This document shows, piece by piece, positions 5,346 to 18,375 of a DNA stretch of 64,000 nucleotides. Below the pieces are notes generated by a model. It searched no databases, was not told the origin of the DNA, and saw only the letters and a program-made list of their open reading frames with translations. The DNA comes from Homoserinibacter gongjuensis. Its GTDB lineage: Bacteria > Actinomycetota > Actinomycetes > Actinomycetales > Microbacteriaceae. Made by a program: the position numbers and the translations under genes. The stretch's first letter is position 1, and each line of letters opens with the position of its first letter. The DNA lies in assembly GCF_030161875.1 (NCBI RefSeq), contig NZ_BSVA01000001.1, forward strand, positions 2,170,001 to 2,234,000. The letters are read 5' to 3'.

Positions 5346-5522
5346 TCAGGCGCTGAGGAGTCGTTGCAGTGCGGGGCTGCGGCGGTTCAGGGGTGTGCGG
5401 CGGAGGGTGCCGTCGCCGTCGGGTCTTTCGAGGAAGTAGTGGCCGTGTTCTCGTCGGATGCGCCAGGTGTTGTTGTGCACGTTGAGGTGGCAGAACCTGC
5501 AGAGGAGTACGCCGTCGTCGAT
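5346..5522 (-). pseudogene. C-terminal fragment of DUF222/HNH (13E12-type) protein
   Basis: About 58 codons without a start: IDDGVLLCRFCHLNVHNNTW, then HYFLERPDGDGTLRRTPLN and a stop. This is the last part of the HNH domain and the tail of 13E12-type proteins. The missing front is at 9533-10782 and ends exactly where this fragment begins (NGRTDIDD). The two pieces are separated by an integrated 4,034-bp element. Joined at the shared 8-bp repeat they read NGRTDIDDGVLLC, a normal HNH sequence. Confidence 0.85.
5515..5522. other. Attachment site, left end (8-bp core)
   Basis: Core TCGTCGAT shared with 9549-9556. To its left is HNH-gene sequence; to its right is element sequence beginning CAAGCGTAAATCT, one arm of the inferred attP. 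The serine integrase encoded at the other end is the likely enzyme. Confidence 0.75.
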
Positions 5523-5612
5523 CAAGCGTAAATCTGACCGTTACGCACCTCGAACGGGGACGGCCCCAGCCGACTGTCTTTGTGGGAACATGTGTCGCGA
5601 CAGAGGAGTCAC

Positions 5613-6478
5613 ATGACTGAAGAGAAGCAGCCCGAACCCGCGGCAAAGTATTTCGCCCGATTCGGCACCTTCATCCTGACGGGACCTCGAACAGCGAATC
5701 CGGAGACTCTGTACACGCGCATAGGCGAAGCAATCAAGGCTGACAATCGGGTGGTCAACGTCGCCCTACCAAAGCTCAACAAGCACTGGATCTCGACAGA
5801 CGTCTACTTTCCCGGCTCTGTCGACGACCCTGAGGTACTTCTCCAGGGATCCGATGCGATGAGGGGAATCCAGTACCCGCGTCCTTTTGTTTTTGAGCTC
5901 AGTGTCCCAATCAAGAATCAGCCGAAGATCTATGGGCGGTCTGCATCATCGGACCACTACTACGTCGCATGGGACGGCTGTATCGCCGTCATCCTCTGGG
6001 ATGCTGCTGGGGCGGAGAAACCTTCTGGTGCGGCGGGACAGATCCTGATTGAGGTTTTGGAAACGGCTGCCGAATCGCTCGACCTCGATCTCTATGTGCA
6101 GGCATGCAGCCCTGGGTGCGAACTGAAGTTTGCCCATCGCGCAATGCTGGTGGAGACAATTCAGGGCGAAGGGCCACGCCCCCGTTCACGGTCGACGAGA
6201 CCGACATCGTGAGGGTCCAGCTGGGCATGGATGACGAGGTGCCCCTGGCAGCCGCTCTGCACCGCCAACTCGAGCCTGCCGCTGGGGAGTTTGCGCAAGT
6301 CAAGAACATCGCCCGCCGCGTGTTGGACATGGAGGACGCGGCCCAGCACATGACCGCGGAGCTGCTCGCTCTCGACTACTTGGCAGTATCCCGCGGAAAT
6401 CTCCCATTGCGGCGAAGAATCGGAGCCAAGTTCCATGACTGGCGCCACCATCGTGGGGAGGAGGCGCTCGTCGCGTGA
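5613..6478 (+). CDS. Cargo protein of unknown function (one apparent frameshift)
   Basis: Starts at an ATG preceded by AGAGGAG, just inside the left end of the integrated element. It is broken at the C5 run 6179-6183; an added C gives GPRPPFTVDETDIVRV and one soluble protein of about 289 residues. I do not recognise a family. Two parts are visible: an alpha/beta region (YFARFGTFILTGP, SSDHYYVAWDGCIAVILWD) and a helical C-terminal part (KNIARRVLDMEDAAQHMTAE). It overlaps the next gene by four bases. The G4 run at 6455-6458 could hide a further lost base that would fuse both genes into one membrane-anchored protein. Confidence 0.6.
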
Positions 6479-6795
6479 GATACCTGATTGCCTCACTGTG
6501 GCTGGCCATGGCCCGGGTGGAAGTGCTTCAACAGCGGTATTCGGAGACGCGTCGTCGATTCGATGATCGGCTCACACGATGGACAATCCCTCAGCTGTTT
6601 GACCTCGATCTCAAGGCAGATGAAGCCAGCGTCGGACAAATCGACCCACAGTTCGCGCGAGCCGCTGTCGAAAACAGGTCGCTGCGCATCGACACGCGGG
6701 TTCTGATCATCTCGACCGTTGTTGCTGGCCTCACGGGCGGACTACTCGGCCTAATCGCCGCTCTTCTGACGATGGCGGCCGGGGGCGGCGCGTAG
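6475..6795 (+). CDS. Small protein with C-terminal membrane segment, partner of preceding cargo gene
   Basis: 106 residues, GTG start overlapping the upstream stop (GTGA) after GGGGAGGAGG, so coupled to the preceding gene. The N-terminal half is helical and charged; a hydrophobic stretch near residues 76-100 (VLIISTVVAGLTGGLLGLIA) is a likely transmembrane anchor. No family is recognised. A cytosolic protein coupled to a small membrane protein on a mobile element resembles sensor-effector defence pairs, but no catalytic or pore motif proves this. Confidence 0.5.
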   Translation: MRYLIASLWLAMARVEVLQQRYSETRRRFDDRLTRWTIPQLFDLDLKADEASVGQIDPQFARAAVENRSLRIDTRVLIISTVVAGLTGGLLGLIAALLTMAAGGGA

Positions 6796-6858
6796 CGCCG
6801 CGCTTGACTTGAATCTGCAACATAACTCGGGAAGCTACGGGAGATCCTTCGGTGGCAA

Positions 6859-6885
6859 CTGATCGTCCGCGGAGCGGGCGATCAG
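6859..6885. other. 12-bp hairpin between cargo and rep genes
   Basis: CTGATCGTCCGC, loop GGA, GCGGGCGATCAG: a 12-bp stem with one mismatch and a three-base loop. There is no T-tract. It lies in the roughly 370-bp non-coding stretch (6796-7166) between the cargo genes and rep. It could end cargo transcription or be part of the double-strand origin that an HUH Rep nicks. Nothing else stands out in this stretch. Confidence 0.45.
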
Positions 6886-7166
6886 GCGGCAGCCTGTGAG
6901 GTAGCCGGGAACGAATGACAGTGGTGTTGTTCGTGCGGTAGGAATGGGTCACCGTCGCATAGCGAACGGTCGTGGTTATGAGACGCGGTCGGCGGCGGAA
7001 CCGTAGGTTGCTCGGGTCCTCCAGACATAGACATTTTCTGAACTAGCCGCTCTGGCACTTCATCGCGCCTTCGCGCGCGTCTGTCTTTGTAAGCCTGCCG
7101 GGTGCCCGCTTCCTCGTTGTCTTGTGCGTTCGCGTGCGCCTCGGCGTTTGCCGATTGGTGTTCTCG

Positions 7167-7937
7167 ATGGGTGTTCCTGTCGACCCCTCCGGGGGTGTTG
7201 GTCCAGCTTCGGGCTGGGTGTTCTCGTTGTGTCCGGATGCCGCGGAGGGCGGAGGTTCGTTCCAGCGCTTCGTGCGGAAGTCCTCGCCGTATGTGGCGCG
7301 GGGTGCTGCTGCGGATCCTGAGCGGTCGGCGGAGGAGGCGGGGCGGCGGGCGCGGTCACGGTTGCGGCGGTACTGTGCGGCGAACCGGCTGAATCGTCTC
7401 GGGACGCTGACCTATCGCGGTGAGGGTTGCCATGATCCGGAGGCAATCCGTCTGCATCTGGGCGAGTTTTTCCGCGAGCTGCGTGATGGGCTCGGGGGTG
7501 AGCCGTTGCCGTATGTGTGGGTGCCTGAGTGGCACAAGTCCGGCCACGGGTTGCATGCGCATTTCGCGGTGGGGAAGTTCGTCCCGCGGAGGCTGATCGA
7601 GTCGGCGTGGGGGCGCGGGTTCGTGCACATCAAGCTGCTCGGCGATCTTCCGGTCGGCACGACGGCGCTGGGTGAGGGGCGGCGCGCCGCCGGGTACTTG
7701 TCCAAGTACGTTGCGAAGACGTTCGCGGACCCGGATGCGCGAGCCCTCGGGCTGCATCGGTATGACGTGGCGCAGGGGTTCCAGCCGGAAACCGTGTCGA
7801 TCACCGGGCGGACGAAGTTCGCGGTGCTCGAGGAAGCGTCCGGGGTGTTCGGGGACGAGCCGTCGTCGACGTGGTTCTCCTCGGAGACCGAGGGGTGGCA
7901 GGGGCCGCCCGCGGTGTGGGCTCAGTGGGGTCGATGA
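7167..7937 (+). CDS. HUH-type rolling-circle replication initiator (Rep)
   Basis: 256 residues from ATG 7167; an upstream in-frame TTG at 7122 is possible. Three rolling-circle motifs are visible in order: a motif-I-like LGTLTY near residue 79, the metal-binding HUH motif GLHAHFAV with H130 and H132, and the catalytic tyrosine motif GYLSKYVAK with Y177 and Y181. Such proteins nick one strand at an origin and stay covalently bound through tyrosine. It lies inside the integrated element and should replicate the excised circle. The first ~40 residues are poorly conserved-looking and the start is uncertain. Confidence 0.75.
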   Translation: MGVPVDPSGGVGPASGWVFSLCPDAAEGGGSFQRFVRKSSPYVARGAAADPERSAEEAGRRARSRLRRYCAANRLNRLGTLTYRGEGCHDPEAIRLHLGEFFRELRDGLGGEPLPYVWVPEWHKSGHGLHAHFAVGKFVPRRLIESAWGRGFVHIKLLGDLPVGTTALGEGRRAAGYLSKYVAKTFADPDARALGLHRYDVAQGFQPETVSITGRTKFAVLEEASGVFGDEPSSTWFSSETEGWQGPPAVWAQWGR

Positions 7938-7941
7938 GCCG

Positions 7942-8067
7942 ATGAGTGTCGACCGGGGTGCGTTGCGCGCGTGGGTGGAAGCCACCTGCGCTGCTCAGGG
8001 TGTCCCGGTGTTGGTGACCGATGCCGGTGCGGTGTCGCAGCTGCGGACGCTGTTGAGCGTGCGGGGG
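7942..8067 (+). CDS. Small ORF after rep (3' end uncertain)
   Basis: ATG four bases after the rep stop; the first ~40 residues (MSVDRGALRAWVEATCAAQG, then VPVLVTDAGAVSQL) resemble small proteins that follow rep genes in actinobacterial elements. The frame then runs through a GC-rich hairpin and the antisense of the integrase without a nearby stop, so the end given is only the limit of plausible coding. It may be a small DNA-binding or excision protein; that is a guess from position. Confidence 0.35.
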
Positions 8068-8068
8068 T

Positions 8069-8101
8069 CCGCGGAGGGGCCCCGCGAGGGGCCCTCCGCG
8101 G
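8069..8101. terminator. Strong hairpin between convergent rep and integrase genes
   Basis: CCGCGGAGGGGCCCC pairs with GGGGCCCTCCGCGG with one bulged G and a short loop. It is placed 11 bases beyond the integrase stop (minus strand) and after the small ORF (plus strand), as expected for a bidirectional terminator. There is no T-tract. Confidence 0.5.
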
Positions 8102-8111
8102 GCCCCGCCGC

Positions 8112-9523
8112 TCACAGGGCCCAGGTGGGCACGATCCGGTTCGGGTCCAGCCCGCGGGCTCCGGGAGTGCCGGGGAGGATGGTCGCGAAGTCGAGGACCG
8201 CGGCGATGATCGCGGCCTGCCGGGTGAGGTTGAGCCCTTCCCAGGCGTCGCGTAGACCCGTGCCGTTGCCGATCAGCCCGTCCAGGGTGCTCGTGCCGGT
8301 CATCTGTGACAGTTGCCGTTCCGCGGTCTGGATGCGGCGCTCGATCGGTTCGCGGGCGCTCATCCACTCGGCGGTGGAGATCGACTTCGCCGACCACATC
8401 CCCGCGAGCTCCTCCATCTGCGCGCGGTCCCTGTCGAGCTCGGCAAGGGTTGCCGCGTAGCGTTCGTCAGCAGCCGCGCGGCCCGCAAGTGCGTCGGCCA
8501 TAGTGGGGCTGTCGAGGCGGATCAGGACTGCTTCCGCGATCCACTCCTCCAAAGGTGCGGCGACTACGGTGAGCTTCCCGCACCCACCATGGTCGGGACC
8601 AGACATGCAGACGTAGCGGCGGGTCTCGACCTTCCGGTCGTTGCGGACTGAGGAGAACAGCTTGTTGCCGCACTTCCCGCACCGCAGCAGACCCGACAGC
8701 AGATACCGGCGCGGGGTGCGGCGCCCGGTGACCTTCTTGCGGGCGAAAGCCGCGACCAACTGGTGATGCTGGGCGGGCGTGATGATCGCCGGCCACACCG
8801 CCTCGGCGACGACCTCTCCATGGTGGGCGCGGAGGCCGGCGTAACGGGGTTGATGAGGGTCGCACGCAGCACGCTTGTGTGCCACGGCTTCCCCGCGACG
8901 GACATGATGCCCTGCTCTTGCATCCAGTTCGTGAGAGACATCAGCGACTCGCCCGCGAGATACCGGGTGGCGAGGTCGCGGAACACCTCCGCTTCGGATT
9001 CGATCACGGTCACCCGATCTGCCGCGTAGGCAAACGGGCGGATCCCTCCGCCGCTGACCCGTCCCTGCTCGGCGTTCTGGCGTGCCTTGCTGCGCAGGCG
9101 GGCAGACTTCCGGGCGGATTCCTTCGCGGCGACGGCGCCCAGGATCCTCGCCATGAAGAGACCGTCGTCATTGCCCAAGTCGATGTCGGCGGTCACGGTG
9201 GCGAAGTGCGTCATCCCCGCTGTGTCGCACACCTGCATGAAGTGTTCCAACTCCACCGGGCGCCGGGTGAGCCGGTCGGTGTGGTACGCGATCACGGCAT
9301 CCCGACGACCCTCGGCGACGTCCTGCAACATGCGCTCGTACTGGGGCCGCGTCTTGCCTGAGTACGCGGAGATGTCATTGTCGACGTACTCCTCCGCGAC
9401 GGTCCAGCCGCGCTGCTCGGCAAGCTTCCGACACTCGGCGAGCTGCCGCTCAACCCCGAGACCTTCACCCGTCACATCGCGGGAGATACGTGCATAGATC
9501 GCCGCTGCGACCACCTTCGACAT
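8112..9523 (-). CDS. Large serine recombinase / integrase (one apparent frameshift)
   Basis: About 470 residues once repaired. N-terminal resolvase domain with the nucleophile in IYARIS (S14) and the AYHTDRLTRRP region; a recombinase domain in the middle; then a zinc-ribbon (RCGKCGNKLF followed by two further cysteines in MSGPDHGGCGK) and a coiled-coil tail. This is the architecture of integrases that recombine attP with attB. The frame breaks at 8846-8849 (C4 on the coding strand); one more C gives LINPRYAGLR. It starts 26 bases from the right att core and reads into the element, the usual position for a self-integrating enzyme. Confidence 0.88.
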
Positions 9524-9532
9524 GGGGTGAGA

Positions 9533-10782
9533 TTAGCAAGCAATCGCATCGTCGATGTCGGTGCGGCCGTTGTGGGCGTCCCAGTGGTCGATGTGGTGGG
9601 CTTCGCACCAGGATGATGGTCGCGCGCACATGATGCATCCGCCGTCGCGGGCGGCCATCGCGGTGCGTTGCTTCTGGGTGAAGAGGCGTTGCTCGCGGCC
9701 GAGGTTGAGGGCGCGTCCGTCGGTGGCGAACATGATCGGCACGGCGCCACTGCTGCAGATGTAGCGTTCGGCGGTAGCGATGGAGACGGCGTCGTGCTGG
9801 CCTTCGAAGTACGCGGCGCCCGCCCGGGTGCCGTCGGCGTCGGGTTGGGCTTCGAGGTCGGTCTGGGTGACGAGGATGCGCACGGCCGGTTTGCGGTCAC
9901 CCAGGAGTGTTCCGTCGTCGACGCGCGCACCGATGCGGATGAGTTCGACGAACACGTCGAGGGTGAGTTGCTCGGTGGTGCGCTCGTCGCGGACGATGTC
10001 TTCGGCGCGCTGGGCGGCATCCGGGTCGACGAAGCGGGGGCCGCCTCGGCGGGGGAGGTGGCGGCGTCGAATGTCGGCACGACGATCGCCGCGGATTCCG
10101 GGTCGAGCAGACCGTGGAAGCTGGTGGAGCCGTCTGGTTGCGTGCGGAACTTCAGGTACCGCTTGTCGCGCAGCGCGTTCTCGCGTGCCGGGATGCCGGC
10201 CAGGTCGAGCTCATCCCGCGCGCGGGCGGCCAGCGCGGCCAGGGTCTCGAGCGTCGACTGCGGTGCTGCCGCGATCAGCAGCTTCGCGGCGGCAGTGAGG
10301 TCGTCGTCTGCGGCGCCGTCGGCGGCTGCCGCGAGGCGGGTGCGGATGACCTCCGCGGCCCCGACCGAGATCGCGGCGGAGGCGACCGCATCCGCGATCA
10401 CCGTCTGCCAGCGCGGTGCCGGCGGCTGCGATGCCGAGTCGTCGCGTGTCGAGGTCGGCAGGAACTCGGCCGCCTTCACCAGCGTGTGAGCGTCACGGCG
10501 GGAGGTCGCAGTGACCTTCGCGATGAGATCCTCCGCCGACCGCACCCCGTTCGCCTGCGCGAGCCCCGCATGCCCCAGCTCGCGGCGCGAGCGGTGGGCG
10601 ATCTCCCCGGCGAACGCCGCGGCCACCGCATCCACCCGCCGCCGCAGCTCCGCGACCGCACGCTGCCCATCCAGCAGCTCCGCATCCGTGAACCCCGCCA
10701 CCGCGGGCACCGCGAAGGGTGCCGCAGCATCGCCCAGAGCGGCGAGGAAGGTGGGGAACGAGGGCATGCTTGATTCTCCCAT
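9533..10782 (-). pseudogene. DUF222/HNH endonuclease (13E12 type), C-terminus displaced by integrated element
   Basis: DUF222 region first (TDAELLDGQRAVAELRRRVDA), then the start of an HNH domain (GGCIMCARPSSWCEAHHIDHWD). The frame runs into element DNA after NGRTDIDD and stops within three codons. The rest of the HNH domain is at 5346-5522. A second lesion at the G5 run 10036-10040 is the common single-base type; an added C on the coding strand gives AAPRFVDPDA. Start is ATG 10782 or 10767. A LexA box overlaps the upstream side. Without its last HNH residues the protein is probably inactive while the element is integrated. Confidence 0.85.
9549..9556. other. Attachment site, right end (8-bp core)
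   Basis: Second copy of TCGTCGAT. To its left is element sequence AGATTAGCAAGCAATCG-CA, the other inferred attP arm; to its right is HNH-gene sequence. Confidence 0.75.
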
Positions 10783-10786
10783 GAAA

Positions 10787-10802
10787 TCGAACGCATATTC
10801 GA
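10787..10802. promoter_or_regulatory. LexA (SOS) box upstream of HNH gene
   Basis: TCGAACGCATATTCGA matches the actinobacterial SOS consensus TCGAAC-N4-GTTCGA at 11 of 12 defined positions when read on either strand. It lies just upstream of the start at 10782. Several 13E12-type genes of mycobacteria are LexA-controlled, which supports the call. Confidence 0.65.
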
Positions 10803-12233: not shown

Positions 12234-13207
12234 ATGCGCGCCATCGTCGTCGAGAGCTACGGGCCCCCTGAGGTGGCCCGGGTTCGCGAGCTGCCCACCC
12301 CGGAACCGCGGGCGGGCGAGGTGCTCGTGCGCGTGCACGCGGCCGCCGTCACGAGCGGCGACGCCCGCATGCGCTCGGGCAGCTTCCCGCCCGGGTTCGC
12401 CGTTCCGGGCAAGCTCGCGATGGGCATCCGCGGGCCGCGGGTGCGCGTGCTCGGCGTGGTGTTCTCGGGCGAGGTCGCCGCGCTCGGCTCTGGCGTCGGC
12501 CATCTCGCCGTGGGGGAACGGGTCAGCGGCATGACGGGCGCCGCGTGCGGCGCACATGCGGAGTTCGTGCGGGTGAAGGCCGCGAAGGCGCTGCCGATGC
12601 CCTACGACCTCACGTATGACGCGGCCGCCGCGGTGCTGTTCGGCGGCAGCACGGCGCTCGACTTCCTCGTGACCAAGGCCGGGCTGGAGGCCCGCCTCGC
12701 CGCGAAACCCGACGCATCCGTGCTCGTGAACGGCGCCTCGGGCGCCGTCGGGGCCGCCGCCGTGCAGCTCGCCCGCCACCTGGGCGCGCGCGTCACGGGC
12801 GTCACGAGCGCCGCGAACGCCGAGTTCGTGCGCGGCCTCGGCGCCGAGCGCACGATCGACTACCGCGTCACCCCCGTCGACGCCCTCGCGGATGCGGGAG
12901 AGCGTTTCGACGTCGTGCTCGACACGGTCGGCAACCTCTCGGCAGCATCCGGACGCCGGCTGCTCGCCGACGGGGAGTGCTGCTGCTCGCGGTGGCGGGA
13001 CTCGGCGAGACGATCGCCGCGCGCGGCAACGTGAAGGCGGGGCCGGCATCCGAACGCCCCGAGCATCTCGCGCGCGTGCTGCAGTTCGCCGCCGACGGGG
13101 TGCTCAGCCCGCTCATCGAGGCGAGCTACCCGCTCGAGGCGGTCGCCGAGGCGTATGCGCGCATCGACTCGGGCCGCAAGGTCGGCAACATCGTGCTGCG
13201 GCCGTAG
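12234..13207 (+). CDS. Zinc-independent quinone-oxidoreductase-like NAD(P)-dependent dehydrogenase (one apparent frameshift)
   Basis: Medium-chain dehydrogenase fold: an N-terminal GroES-like domain (PEPRAGEVLVRVHAAAVTSG) followed by a Rossmann domain with VLVNGASGAVGAAAVQLA. The catalytic zinc ligands of true alcohol dehydrogenases are absent, as in quinone oxidoreductase-like members. The frame breaks at the G4 run 12972-12975; one added G gives ADGGVLLLAVAG and about 324 residues in total. It is controlled by the divergent TetR gene, so the enzyme may process the TetR ligand. Confidence 0.85.
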
Positions 13208-13985: not shown

Positions 13986-15555
13986 ATGGCCAAGCCCGAC
14001 CTCATGGACTTCGACAAGGCGCTCGAACTGTTCGAGCCGGTGCTCGGATTCGAGGTGCACGTCGAGCTCTCGACCGCCACGAAGATGTTCAGTGACGCCC
14101 CGAACCCGGCAGCGCCCGGCGGCTTCGGCGCCGCCCCGAACACGCAGATCACGCCGCTGTGTCTGGGCCTGCCCGGCAGCCTGCCCGTGGTGAACGAGAA
14201 GGCGATCGAGTACTCGATCTCGCTCGGGCTCGCGCTCGGATGCCAGATCGCCCCGTCGAGCCGCTTCGCCCGCAAGAACTACTTCTACCCCGACCTCGCG
14301 AAGAACTACCAGATCAGCCAATACGACGAGCCGATCGCCTTCGAGGGTTCGCTCGTGATCGAGCTGGAGGACGGCACCTCGGTGACGATCCCGATCGAGC
14401 GCGCGCACATGGAGGAAGATGCCGGCAAGCTCACCCACATGGGCGGCGCGACCGGACGCATCCACGGCGCCGAGTACTCGCTCGTGGACTACAACCGCGC
14501 GGGCGTGCCGCTCGTGGAGATCGTGACGAAGCCGATCTTCGGCACCGAGCATCGCGCGCCCGAGGTGGGCAAGGCCTACGTGGCGACGATCCGCGAGATC
14601 GCACGCTCGCTCGGCATCTCGGAGGCGCGGATGGAGCGCGGCAACCTCCGCTGCGACGCGAACGTGTCGCTGCGCCCGCGCACCGCCCCGGCGGCCGAGC
14701 TGGCGGACGGCCACGACGCATCCGTCAACCCGCACCCCGAAGTGAAGCTCGGCATCCGCACCGAGACGAAGAACGTGAACTCGTTCCGCTCGGTGGAGCG
14801 CGCGGTGCGCTACGAGATCCAGCGCCAGGCGGCGATCCTCGCCGCGGGCGGCACGATCACGCAGGAGACGCGCCACTGGCACGAGGACCGCGGGGTCACC
14901 TCGGCCGGGCGCCCCAAGTCGGATGCGGACGACTACCGCTACTTCCCGGAGCCCGACCTGCTGCCGATCGAGCCGAGCCCCGAGCTCATCGAGCAGCTGC
15001 GCGCCGCCCTGCCGGAGTCGCCGGCCGTGCGTCGCCGTCGCCTGCAGGAGGCGTGGGGTTTCACCGACCTCGAGTTCCGCGATGTGAAGAACGCCGGACT
15101 GCTCGTCGAGGTGGAGGAGACGGTGGCCGCGGGTGCGGCGCCGGCTCAGGCCCGCAAGTGGTGGACAGGCGAGATCGCCCGCATCGCGAACACCCGCTCG
15201 GCCGAACCGGGCGAGCTGGTGTCGCCGCTGCACGTGTCGGAGCTCATCGCCCTCGTCGAGTCGGGCGACCTCACCGACCGCCTCGCCCGCCAGGTGCTGG
15301 AGGGCGTGATCGAGGGGGGGTCGACCGTCCGAGGTGGTCGAGAAGCGCGGCCTCAAGGTCGTGTCTGATGACGGCGCCCTTATCGCCGCGATCGACGAGG
15401 CGCTCGCCGCCCAGCCCGACGTGCTCGAGAAGATCCGCGACGGCAAGGTGCAGGCCGCCGGTGCCGTCATCGGCGCCGTCATGAAGGCCATGCGCGGGCA
15501 GGCGGATGCGGCGCGCGTGCGGGAGCTCGTTCTGGAGCGGGCGACGCAGGAATAG
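13986..15555 (+). CDS. gatB: Aspartyl/glutamyl-tRNA amidotransferase subunit B (one apparent frameshift)
   Basis: Subunit B of GatCAB, which converts Glu-tRNA(Gln) or Asp-tRNA(Asn) to the amidated form. The signature [18 protein letters not shown] near residue 21 and [14 protein letters not shown] are clear, and the C-terminal tRNA-binding (YqeY-like) domain is present. The frame breaks in the G7 run 15314-15320; G8 gives [16 protein letters not shown] and about 522 residues, close to normal length. An essential gene broken this way argues for sequencing error. The C-terminus has a four-residue insertion (VIGA) compared with the partial second copy at 17849, so the two ends are diverged rather than recent copies. 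Confidence 0.92.
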
Positions 15556-17800: not shown

Positions 17801-17848
17801 CGCGACCGTGAGACCTTCCGGTCGCTCCTACTCGGGTCGGTAGCGACA

Positions 17849-18375
17849 ACGAGTTCCGCGACGTGAAGAACGCGGGTCTGCTCGTCGAGGTGGAGGAGAA
17901 GGTGGCCGCGGGTGCGGCGCCGGCCCAGGCGCGCAAGTGGTGGACGGGCGAGATCGCCCGCATCGCGAACACCCGCTCGGTCGAGCCGTCGGAGCTCGTG
18001 TCGCCACTGCACGTGCCGGAGCTCATCGCGCTCGTGGAGACCGGTGAGCTCACCGACCGCCTCGCGCGTCAGATGCTCGAGGGCGTCATCGAGGGCGAGG
18101 GTCGCCCCACCGAGGTCATCGAGAAGCGCGGCCTCAAGGTCGTCTCCGACGACGGCGCCCTCATCGCCGCGATCGACGAGGCGCTCGCCGCCCAGCCCGA
18201 CGTGCTCGAGAAGATCCGCGACGGCAAGGTGCAGGCCGCCGGCGCCGTCATGAAGGCCATGAAGGGCCAGGCGGATGCCGCCCGCGTGCGCGAGCTCGTG
18301 CTGGAGCGGGCGACACGCAGGGCTAGTCATGCCTGCATAACGCTGCTGCGGGAGTGTGGCCTCCTCGTTGCAGGA
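17849..18375 (+). pseudogene. gatB: Second, truncated gatB 3' end
   Basis: Begins abruptly at [16 protein letters not shown] without a start and follows the last ~150 residues of gatB at roughly 92% amino-acid identity, then about 60 bases beyond the stop region. It lacks the VIGA insertion and the G-run frameshift of the first copy and has GVIEGEGRPTEV intact. The stop is lost by small changes, so the frame runs on to 18378. Together with 15071-15555 it brackets the 15560-17848 segment, the pattern left when foreign DNA integrates at or recombines within the 3' end of gatB. Confidence 0.88.

Follow-up and report, generated by a model that had tools for sequence, protein, structure and literature searches.

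A candidate integrative element with a serine integrase and an HUH initiator interrupts a DUF222/HNH gene of Homoserinibacter gongjuensis

The DNA analysed here, hereafter the window, is a stretch of 64,000 nucleotides from Homoserinibacter gongjuensis (Microbacteriaceae), taken from a single 3.29-Mb contig (NZ_BSVA01000001.1, C1:2170001-2234000); coordinates are those of the window unless prefixed with C1 or a locus. In this stretch, a DUF222/HNH gene of the 13E12 type is interrupted by an insert of 4,034 bp (5515-9548), flanked by two copies of TCGTCGAT at 5515-5522 and 9549-9556. The front part of the split gene occupies 9533..10767 on the minus strand, with a frame break near 10036-10054 and a stop codon (9533-9535) that lies within the insert, and its C-terminal part, running from the shared core to the stop, occupies 5346..5522 on the same strand and encodes 58 amino acids. 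Within the insert, the gene for a large serine integrase (8112..9523, minus strand) converges with that for a 256-amino-acid HUH replication initiator (Rep; 7167..7937, plus strand), and a cargo gene (5580..6795, plus strand) lies between the rep gene and the distal end of the element. The interval 6796-7166, between cargo and rep, contains no recognized gene.

The limits of the insert can be read against uninterrupted copies of the target gene. The genome carries two further DUF222/HNH copies besides the split one, the nearest of which (L010, C1:907965-909388) shares 93% identity with the front and 96% DNA identity with the C-terminal piece. The front flank matches this paralogue through ATCGACGA and the C-terminal flank matches it onward from the same ATCGACGA, both matches joining at C1:909196-909203, the 8-bp core. 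In a genus mate (L089), an intact open reading frame (ORF) of 512 aa spans both pieces between the same DUF899 and CoxG-like neighbours, with residues 38-294 and 289-459 matching 10815-9542 and residues 455-511 matching 5522-5352; in another genus mate (L090) these neighbours are present and no DUF222/HNH match was found between them. A chance 8-bp repeat was rejected because both flanks independently align to paralogue and orthologue up to the core, as was an origin of the flanks from different family members, both flanks having their best other match in the same paralogue. The initial annotation, made from the letters of the window, had proposed an insertion between two pieces of one DUF222/HNH gene sharing TCGTCGAT, to be doubted if no relative proved intact at this point or if the pieces aligned to different family members. 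The proposal is borne out by the uninterrupted paralogue and orthologue and by the agreement of both pieces on a single paralogue. The insert itself is present once in the genome, its sole other match being 93 bp long at 74% identity. The third DUF222/HNH copy of the genome (4036-5454 of L011) apparently also contains frame breaks.

The assignment of the target to the DUF222/HNH (13E12-type) family stands on the domains of the intact orthologue, in which a 463-aa part of the ORF matches DUF222 (1.8e-19) and HNH (1.2e-08), and on the paralogue pieces, which match likewise; the window piece at 9533-9955, taken alone, falls under the Pfam cut-off for both domains. The further claim that the joined pieces read as one in-frame gene held in part: they form one gene, but its front changes frame near 10036-10054 and is not a single ORF. 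The same frame change is seen in the paralogue, and an assembly error in a run of C is a likelier cause than a true mutation common to both copies. A programmed frameshift, suggested by the break that the paralogue shares, was set aside, given that the genus mates G003 and G004 each encode this region in one ORF (507-512 aa) and that other window genes break too. Overall, frame breaks affect the integrase, the cargo, the DUF222 front and adjoining genes. Comparison with ORFs from other members of the genus places two breaks outside the element, near 12974 and 15318, and the genome is 89.8% complete versus 98-99% in eight genus mates. We read the breaks as probable indels of an error-prone assembly and not as biological.

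In the assembly, the integrase is spread over two ORFs that overlap, 8564-9523 and 8112-8885, and its frame breaks near 8835. Across these two ORFs, Pfam recognizes Resolvase (1.8e-27), Recombinase (4.6e-06) and Zn_ribbon_recom (1.4e-10) domains, all above cut-off, and the ORFs cover residues 87-312 and 310-557 of phrog_95 contiguously. When compared by sequence with solved protein chains, the integrase yields five matches, to the TP901-1 integrase and other serine recombinases. The three domains, combined with a shared core holding a putative 2-bp crossover and with mirrored arms around it, are those expected of a large serine integrase. The Rep matches PF23343 (REP_ORF2-G2P, 1.4e-16) and phrog_3419 (1.1e-21). 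In HUH initiators, conserved histidine and tyrosine residues have catalytic roles, and residues H127, H130, H132, Y177 and Y181 are invariant across 11 aligned Reps, an alignment that leaves out those of L020 and L031 for stops in their translations. The family match and the conserved His and Tyr are consistent with a rolling-circle replicon. Both proteins had been named in the initial annotation, and domain and residue evidence upholds both names.

Relatives of the integrase reveal that the arrangement recurs. A sample gathered with short patterns from the first integrase ORF comprised 113 stretches, of which 51 were confirmed, giving 52 loci with the window. At least 17 of the 51 relatives combine a convergent integrase with the same Rep, a lower bound given that some contigs end early. 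At E <= 1e-40, the Rep occurs in 10 of 398 Microbacteriaceae genomes including its own, and within the genus in one of nine genomes, its own, with none of the eight genus mates carrying it. Two elements of the family are present together in one genome in two instances, L110 and L115 (G196) and L019 and L020 (Sinomonas humi).

The ends of these elements share a conserved register, in which a central dinucleotide is followed by 11 nt and then by the motif GYTAATNTSACC, and most integrase-side junctions fall on one codon of the target gene, that for the Asn of the H-N-H motif. In the window, the putative crossover dinucleotide (5515-5516 in the distal copy of the core and 9549-9550 in the integrase-side copy) reads GA on the gene strand and forms the first two bases of an Asp codon, where most family members have the H-N-H Asn. 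The integrase-side arm of the element's own attachment site (attP; 9526..9548) carries GCTAATCTCACC 11 nt from the dinucleotide, and the distal arm (5517..5539) mirrors it, with 11 nt followed by GTAAATCTGACC at 5528-5539, which agrees with the consensus at 11 of 12 positions. With the dinucleotide taken as position 1, the arms present GYT at positions 13-15, and the next nine bases occupy positions 16-24. These coincide with the positions described for LI integrase, where G13-T15 receive linker contacts and 16-24 form the zinc-domain motif (PMC3783163), which supports our reading of the arms. Among 13 elements in which both ends could be read, the core overlap corresponds in gene coordinates exactly to the first two bases of the Asn codon.

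Elements are found in both orientations at this codon. Protein motifs that ignore the dinucleotide assigned an orientation to 33 of the 52 loci, with no discordant call: 16 elements run forward, along the gene (15 with AA, and the window with GA), and 17 run against it (16 with TT and one with TC). On random stretches these motifs fire at rates of 0.4% (forward) and 0.8% (reverse). A search of the family added three more reversed elements, L114 and L116 (TT) and L115 (TC). Among the 19 loci left without a call, six look by eye like forward insertions in an HNH gene and stand outside the 33 (L029, L033, L034, L035, L040 and L061), two have too little flank (L036 and L046), and the other 11 show no recognized HNH gene; in two of these 11 (L053 and L056) the dinucleotide is TG and the arm motif weak or doubtful. 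The agreement between orientation and dinucleotide is partly geometric, as a fixed cut on AAY or GAY forces AA or GA in forward elements and TT or TC in reversed ones; what is informative is that forward and reversed elements appear to share the base pair at the centre of the cut. Efficient strand exchange has been described as requiring a parallel alignment of central dinucleotides (PMC3783163), and it is plausible that the central dinucleotide sets the orientation of insertion in this family as well. A pattern search of 21 forward loci found none of the distal ends of the mycobacterial elements, which may lie beyond the available flank; a stricter protein motif matched only L054, and the forward class, the window apart, hence rests on its integrase-side junctions.

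A tree of 49 integrase rows, from which L057, L060 and L061 were left out, places the window integrase in a group of five rows with L012-L015 (support 100/100). All four neighbours are reversed (TT or TC), and the forward orientation of the window is on this account read as a separate flip. The mycobacterial and Antrihabitans integrases form a further group of 27 rows, of which 14 were called forward and the other 13 received no call. The tree requires at least two changes of orientation, with 18 ungrouped rows outside this count. The polarity of the window thus appears best read as a flip separate from that of the mycobacterial AA elements, an interpretation that depends on one element.

Forward insertion has a consequence for the interrupted reading frame. 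In the window, the attP arm supplies an in-frame TAA on the gene strand 9 nt before the ATG of the integrase, and GYTAA is present in the arm of all 15 forward-called relatives. Upstream of the split gene, about 20 nt from its probable start, lies the palindrome TCGAAYNNNNRTTCGA (10787..10802), which resembles the consensus of the LexA box and is the sole such match in the window, with 0.01 expected by shuffling. Similar boxes accompany the uninterrupted copies in L010, L089 and L092. The initial annotation had described the HNH gene as SOS-regulated from its family; the palindrome, found also by the intact copies, now gives that description a basis in sequence, and the split gene is probably under DNA-damage control. 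Whether this control extends to the integrases of the family was examined in 22 forward loci, nine of which have too little upstream DNA. Of the remaining 13, three (the window, L029 and L035) have a box with no more than one mismatch, as do about 3-4 of 60 random stretches from the same sources; some of these stretches may extend into the site. The notion that the integrase always lies behind an SOS promoter was rejected as a rule on these counts, and any SOS coupling of the integrase would accordingly be local at most.

The cargo of the window had likewise been anticipated, and resolves into one gene. It is annotated as three ORFs (5580-6212, ~6209-6478 and 6475-6795), with a C-terminal hydrophobic stretch, that correspond to a single 416-aa ORF in L032 (39, 34 and 48% identity). 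Its sequence gave no Pfam or NCBIfam family above cut-off and no PADLOC match, and its structure model, built from four sequences, is poor (mean predicted local distance difference test score, pLDDT, 45.4). Cargo of this type, which has no recognized family, is found in L013 and L032. Among 396 genomes of the order, one besides that of the window has a relative of 46% identity, and neither integrase nor Rep was matched within 11 kb of it. Elsewhere in the family the slot is variable, as seen in L012, L014, L017, L030 and L031, which hold RelA/SpoT-like, AAA, PIN_8, AbiLi-like and NsnB-like proteins. A scan of ten proteins from nine of the 17 Rep-carrying loci returned PADLOC matches below 1e-7 in four: PDC-S33 in L012, whose cargo is RelA_SpoT in Pfam; PDC-S59 in L014; AbiLi, nearly full length (8.3e-46), plus PDC-M38B in L030; and NsnB (1.7e-50) in L031. 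The ATPase of L030 matches 99 PADLOC families and that of L031 matches 78, so that these matches do not fix the exact system. The cargo of L017 belongs to PIN_8 and that of L020 to DUF6414, and no family was recognized in the scan for L013, L015 and L032. The slot may thus serve phage defence, and for the cargo of the window such a role is a guess by position. L031 resembles the other elements in its integrase and Rep, but its site gave no HNH call.

Taken together, these features are best explained by a small integrative element of the Microbacteriaceae, akin to an integrative and mobilizable element (IME) with a rolling-circle initiator, whose integrase would have joined the attP of a circular form to an attachment site (attB) in the DUF222/HNH gene, a reading to which we assign a probability of about 85%. 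Comparison with related loci demonstrates its boundaries, empty sites, shared core, symmetric attP arms, family and common target codon. The gene content agrees with that of an IME, which carries its own integrase and a relaxase or initiator and has no conjugation apparatus. Mechanistically, the integrase would act on attP and attB at the Asn/Asp codon, the only step with direct sequence evidence, and the integrated element would be inherited with the chromosome. Excision, perhaps with a recombination directionality factor (RDF), would yield a circle and a restored attB, and the Rep would replicate the circle or nick it for helper-mediated transfer. An active integrase could, in this way, excise the element and restore attB. 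The initial annotation had taken the HNH gene to be the attB that excision rebuilds; this fits the nucleotide site, but the assembled gene would retain another frame break. With the frame breaks of this assembly, rejoining would restore the site and not one clean frame.

Several observations weigh against this reading. Neither a circular form nor an excised site is in evidence, and both excision and transfer are inferences. The assembly breaks the integrase in two, which makes its activity in the strain uncertain, and the element shows no recognizable RDF, canonical relaxase or conjugation gene. For the Rep, plasmids gave just three weak matches, at 30-36% identity, and neither phage records nor viral contigs gave any. 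The distal ends in the 13-element analysis were picked on condition of the same dinucleotide; when this condition is dropped, the arm motif finds the dinucleotide in 10 of 13, nine of them in the same place and L114 elsewhere. The orientation motifs were composed after the loci had been seen. Lastly, no HNH gene was recognized at the integrase-side junction in 11 of the 52 loci (L031, L037, L038, L043, L044, L045, L048, L053, L055, L056 and L058), indicating that the target is common and not exclusive.

The frame breaks in the integrase, the cargo and the DUF222 front, the last of them shared with the paralogue, also invite the view that the insert is a dead remnant of an old integration, in which integrase, cargo and target are now pseudogenes and nothing is mobile. 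Breaks outside the element (12974 and 15318) and the 89.8% completeness point to assembly indels, the integrase ORFs cover their family profile without a gap and the frame of the Rep is open, all of which make a remnant unlikely. An origin as the remnant of a phiRv1-type satellite prophage, and not as a plasmid-like element, draws on integrase relatives of about 60% identity located in the same orientation in mycobacterial HNH genes and on the reported position of phiRv1 in REP13E12. It seems considerably less probable than a dead remnant, for the window integrase groups with Rep-carrying Microbacteriaceae elements (five rows, 100/100), among the seven ORFs of the element neither Pfam nor PHROGs detected a virion or packaging family, and in phage records the Rep has no match and all integrase matches lie below 60% identity. 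Slightly more remote still is a programmed switch, in which stress-regulated excision would rebuild the HNH gene in the manner of the skin and fdxN elements. In its favour, the integrase begins, in this orientation, 9 nt after the stop that ends the frame of a gene bearing a LexA-like box, and there is a similarity to XisF, although its 60.5 bits are far under the curated cut-off of 375. Against it, the four tree neighbours are all in the opposite orientation, a LexA-like box (one mismatch or none) lies upstream in only 3 of 13 testable forward loci, an uninterrupted paralogue is available anyway, and the absence of the Rep from all eight genus mates indicates that the element is not fixed in the lineage.

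Beyond the integrative element of the window, a broader proposal can be put forward tentatively, at somewhat less than even confidence. The window element may belong to an actinobacterial family of ~4 kb, composed of a serine integrase, an HUH Rep and exchangeable, often defence-like cargo, with its crossover fixed on an HNH Asn codon that the nuclease cannot easily change. Its lineages would insert along or against the gene according to whether attP carries AA/GA or TT/TC, with at least one polarity flip, and in forward elements the attP arm would close the HNH frame 9 nt ahead of where the integrase begins, in some hosts putting the integrase behind a LexA-controlled promoter. The multiple copies of 13E12-type HNH genes and the constraint on that codon suggest a reason for the repeated hits on this target.

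Work on the polarity of Bxb1 and phiC31 concerns laboratory systems, whereas here both polarities are natural and fall on one codon. As proposed for this family, the central dinucleotide is described as deciding the orientation of integration in Bxb1 and phiC31 (PMC3783163), and the elements offer a natural comparison for the laboratory rule that two bases decide the direction in which a serine integrase inserts. The core idea of such an insertion is already known. In Mycobacterium tuberculosis, phiRv1 is reported as a serine-recombinase element in REP13E12, a 13E12-type repeat (PMC9317374), a likeness reinforced by the mycobacterial integrase relatives at the same HNH codon. phiRv1 is portrayed as a prophage-like element that encodes virus-like particles and as resembling phage-inducible chromosomal islands (PICI) (PMC9317374, PMC10654092), whereas the 4 kb of the window element hold a Rep and a single cargo gene. 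Faln2929 of Frankia, an actinomycete integrative and conjugative element (AICE), has a serine recombinase convergent with tra and rep and disrupts a putative endonuclease gene; its excision is reported as detected, with no RDF identified (PMC3218068). The window element resembles it in its actinobacterial host, in a serine recombinase convergent with rep and in its putative endonuclease target, but AICEs carry an FtsK-like tra, and no FtsK/SpoIIIE-like Tra domain was found in the Pfam scan of the seven ORFs, which sets the element apart from AICEs. Non-canonical streptococcal IMEs, as described, pair a serine integrase with an initiator related to rolling-circle replication (RCR), put forward as relaxase, and target dispensable genes (PMC5704250). 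They share with the window element the integrase, the rolling-circle-type initiator and insertion in dispensable genes, and differ from it in host phylum and in Rep family, that of the window being PF23343.

As far as the literature searched goes, three points are new, namely that the insertions map to the HNH Asn codon across families, that opposite polarities occur in nature and that a 4-kb family combines integrase, Rep and cargo; no earlier report of both orientations at the HNH codon was found in that literature, covered partly by narrow queries and mostly outside subscription journals. The family provides sets of integrase, attP and attB that belong together in nature, and the cargo slot of these compact carriers may harbour defence genes not yet described. 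Outside the element, the window contains a partial duplication of about 400 bp, in which 15065-15470 and 17844-18251 are 90% identical and the ORFs of relatives match both copies.

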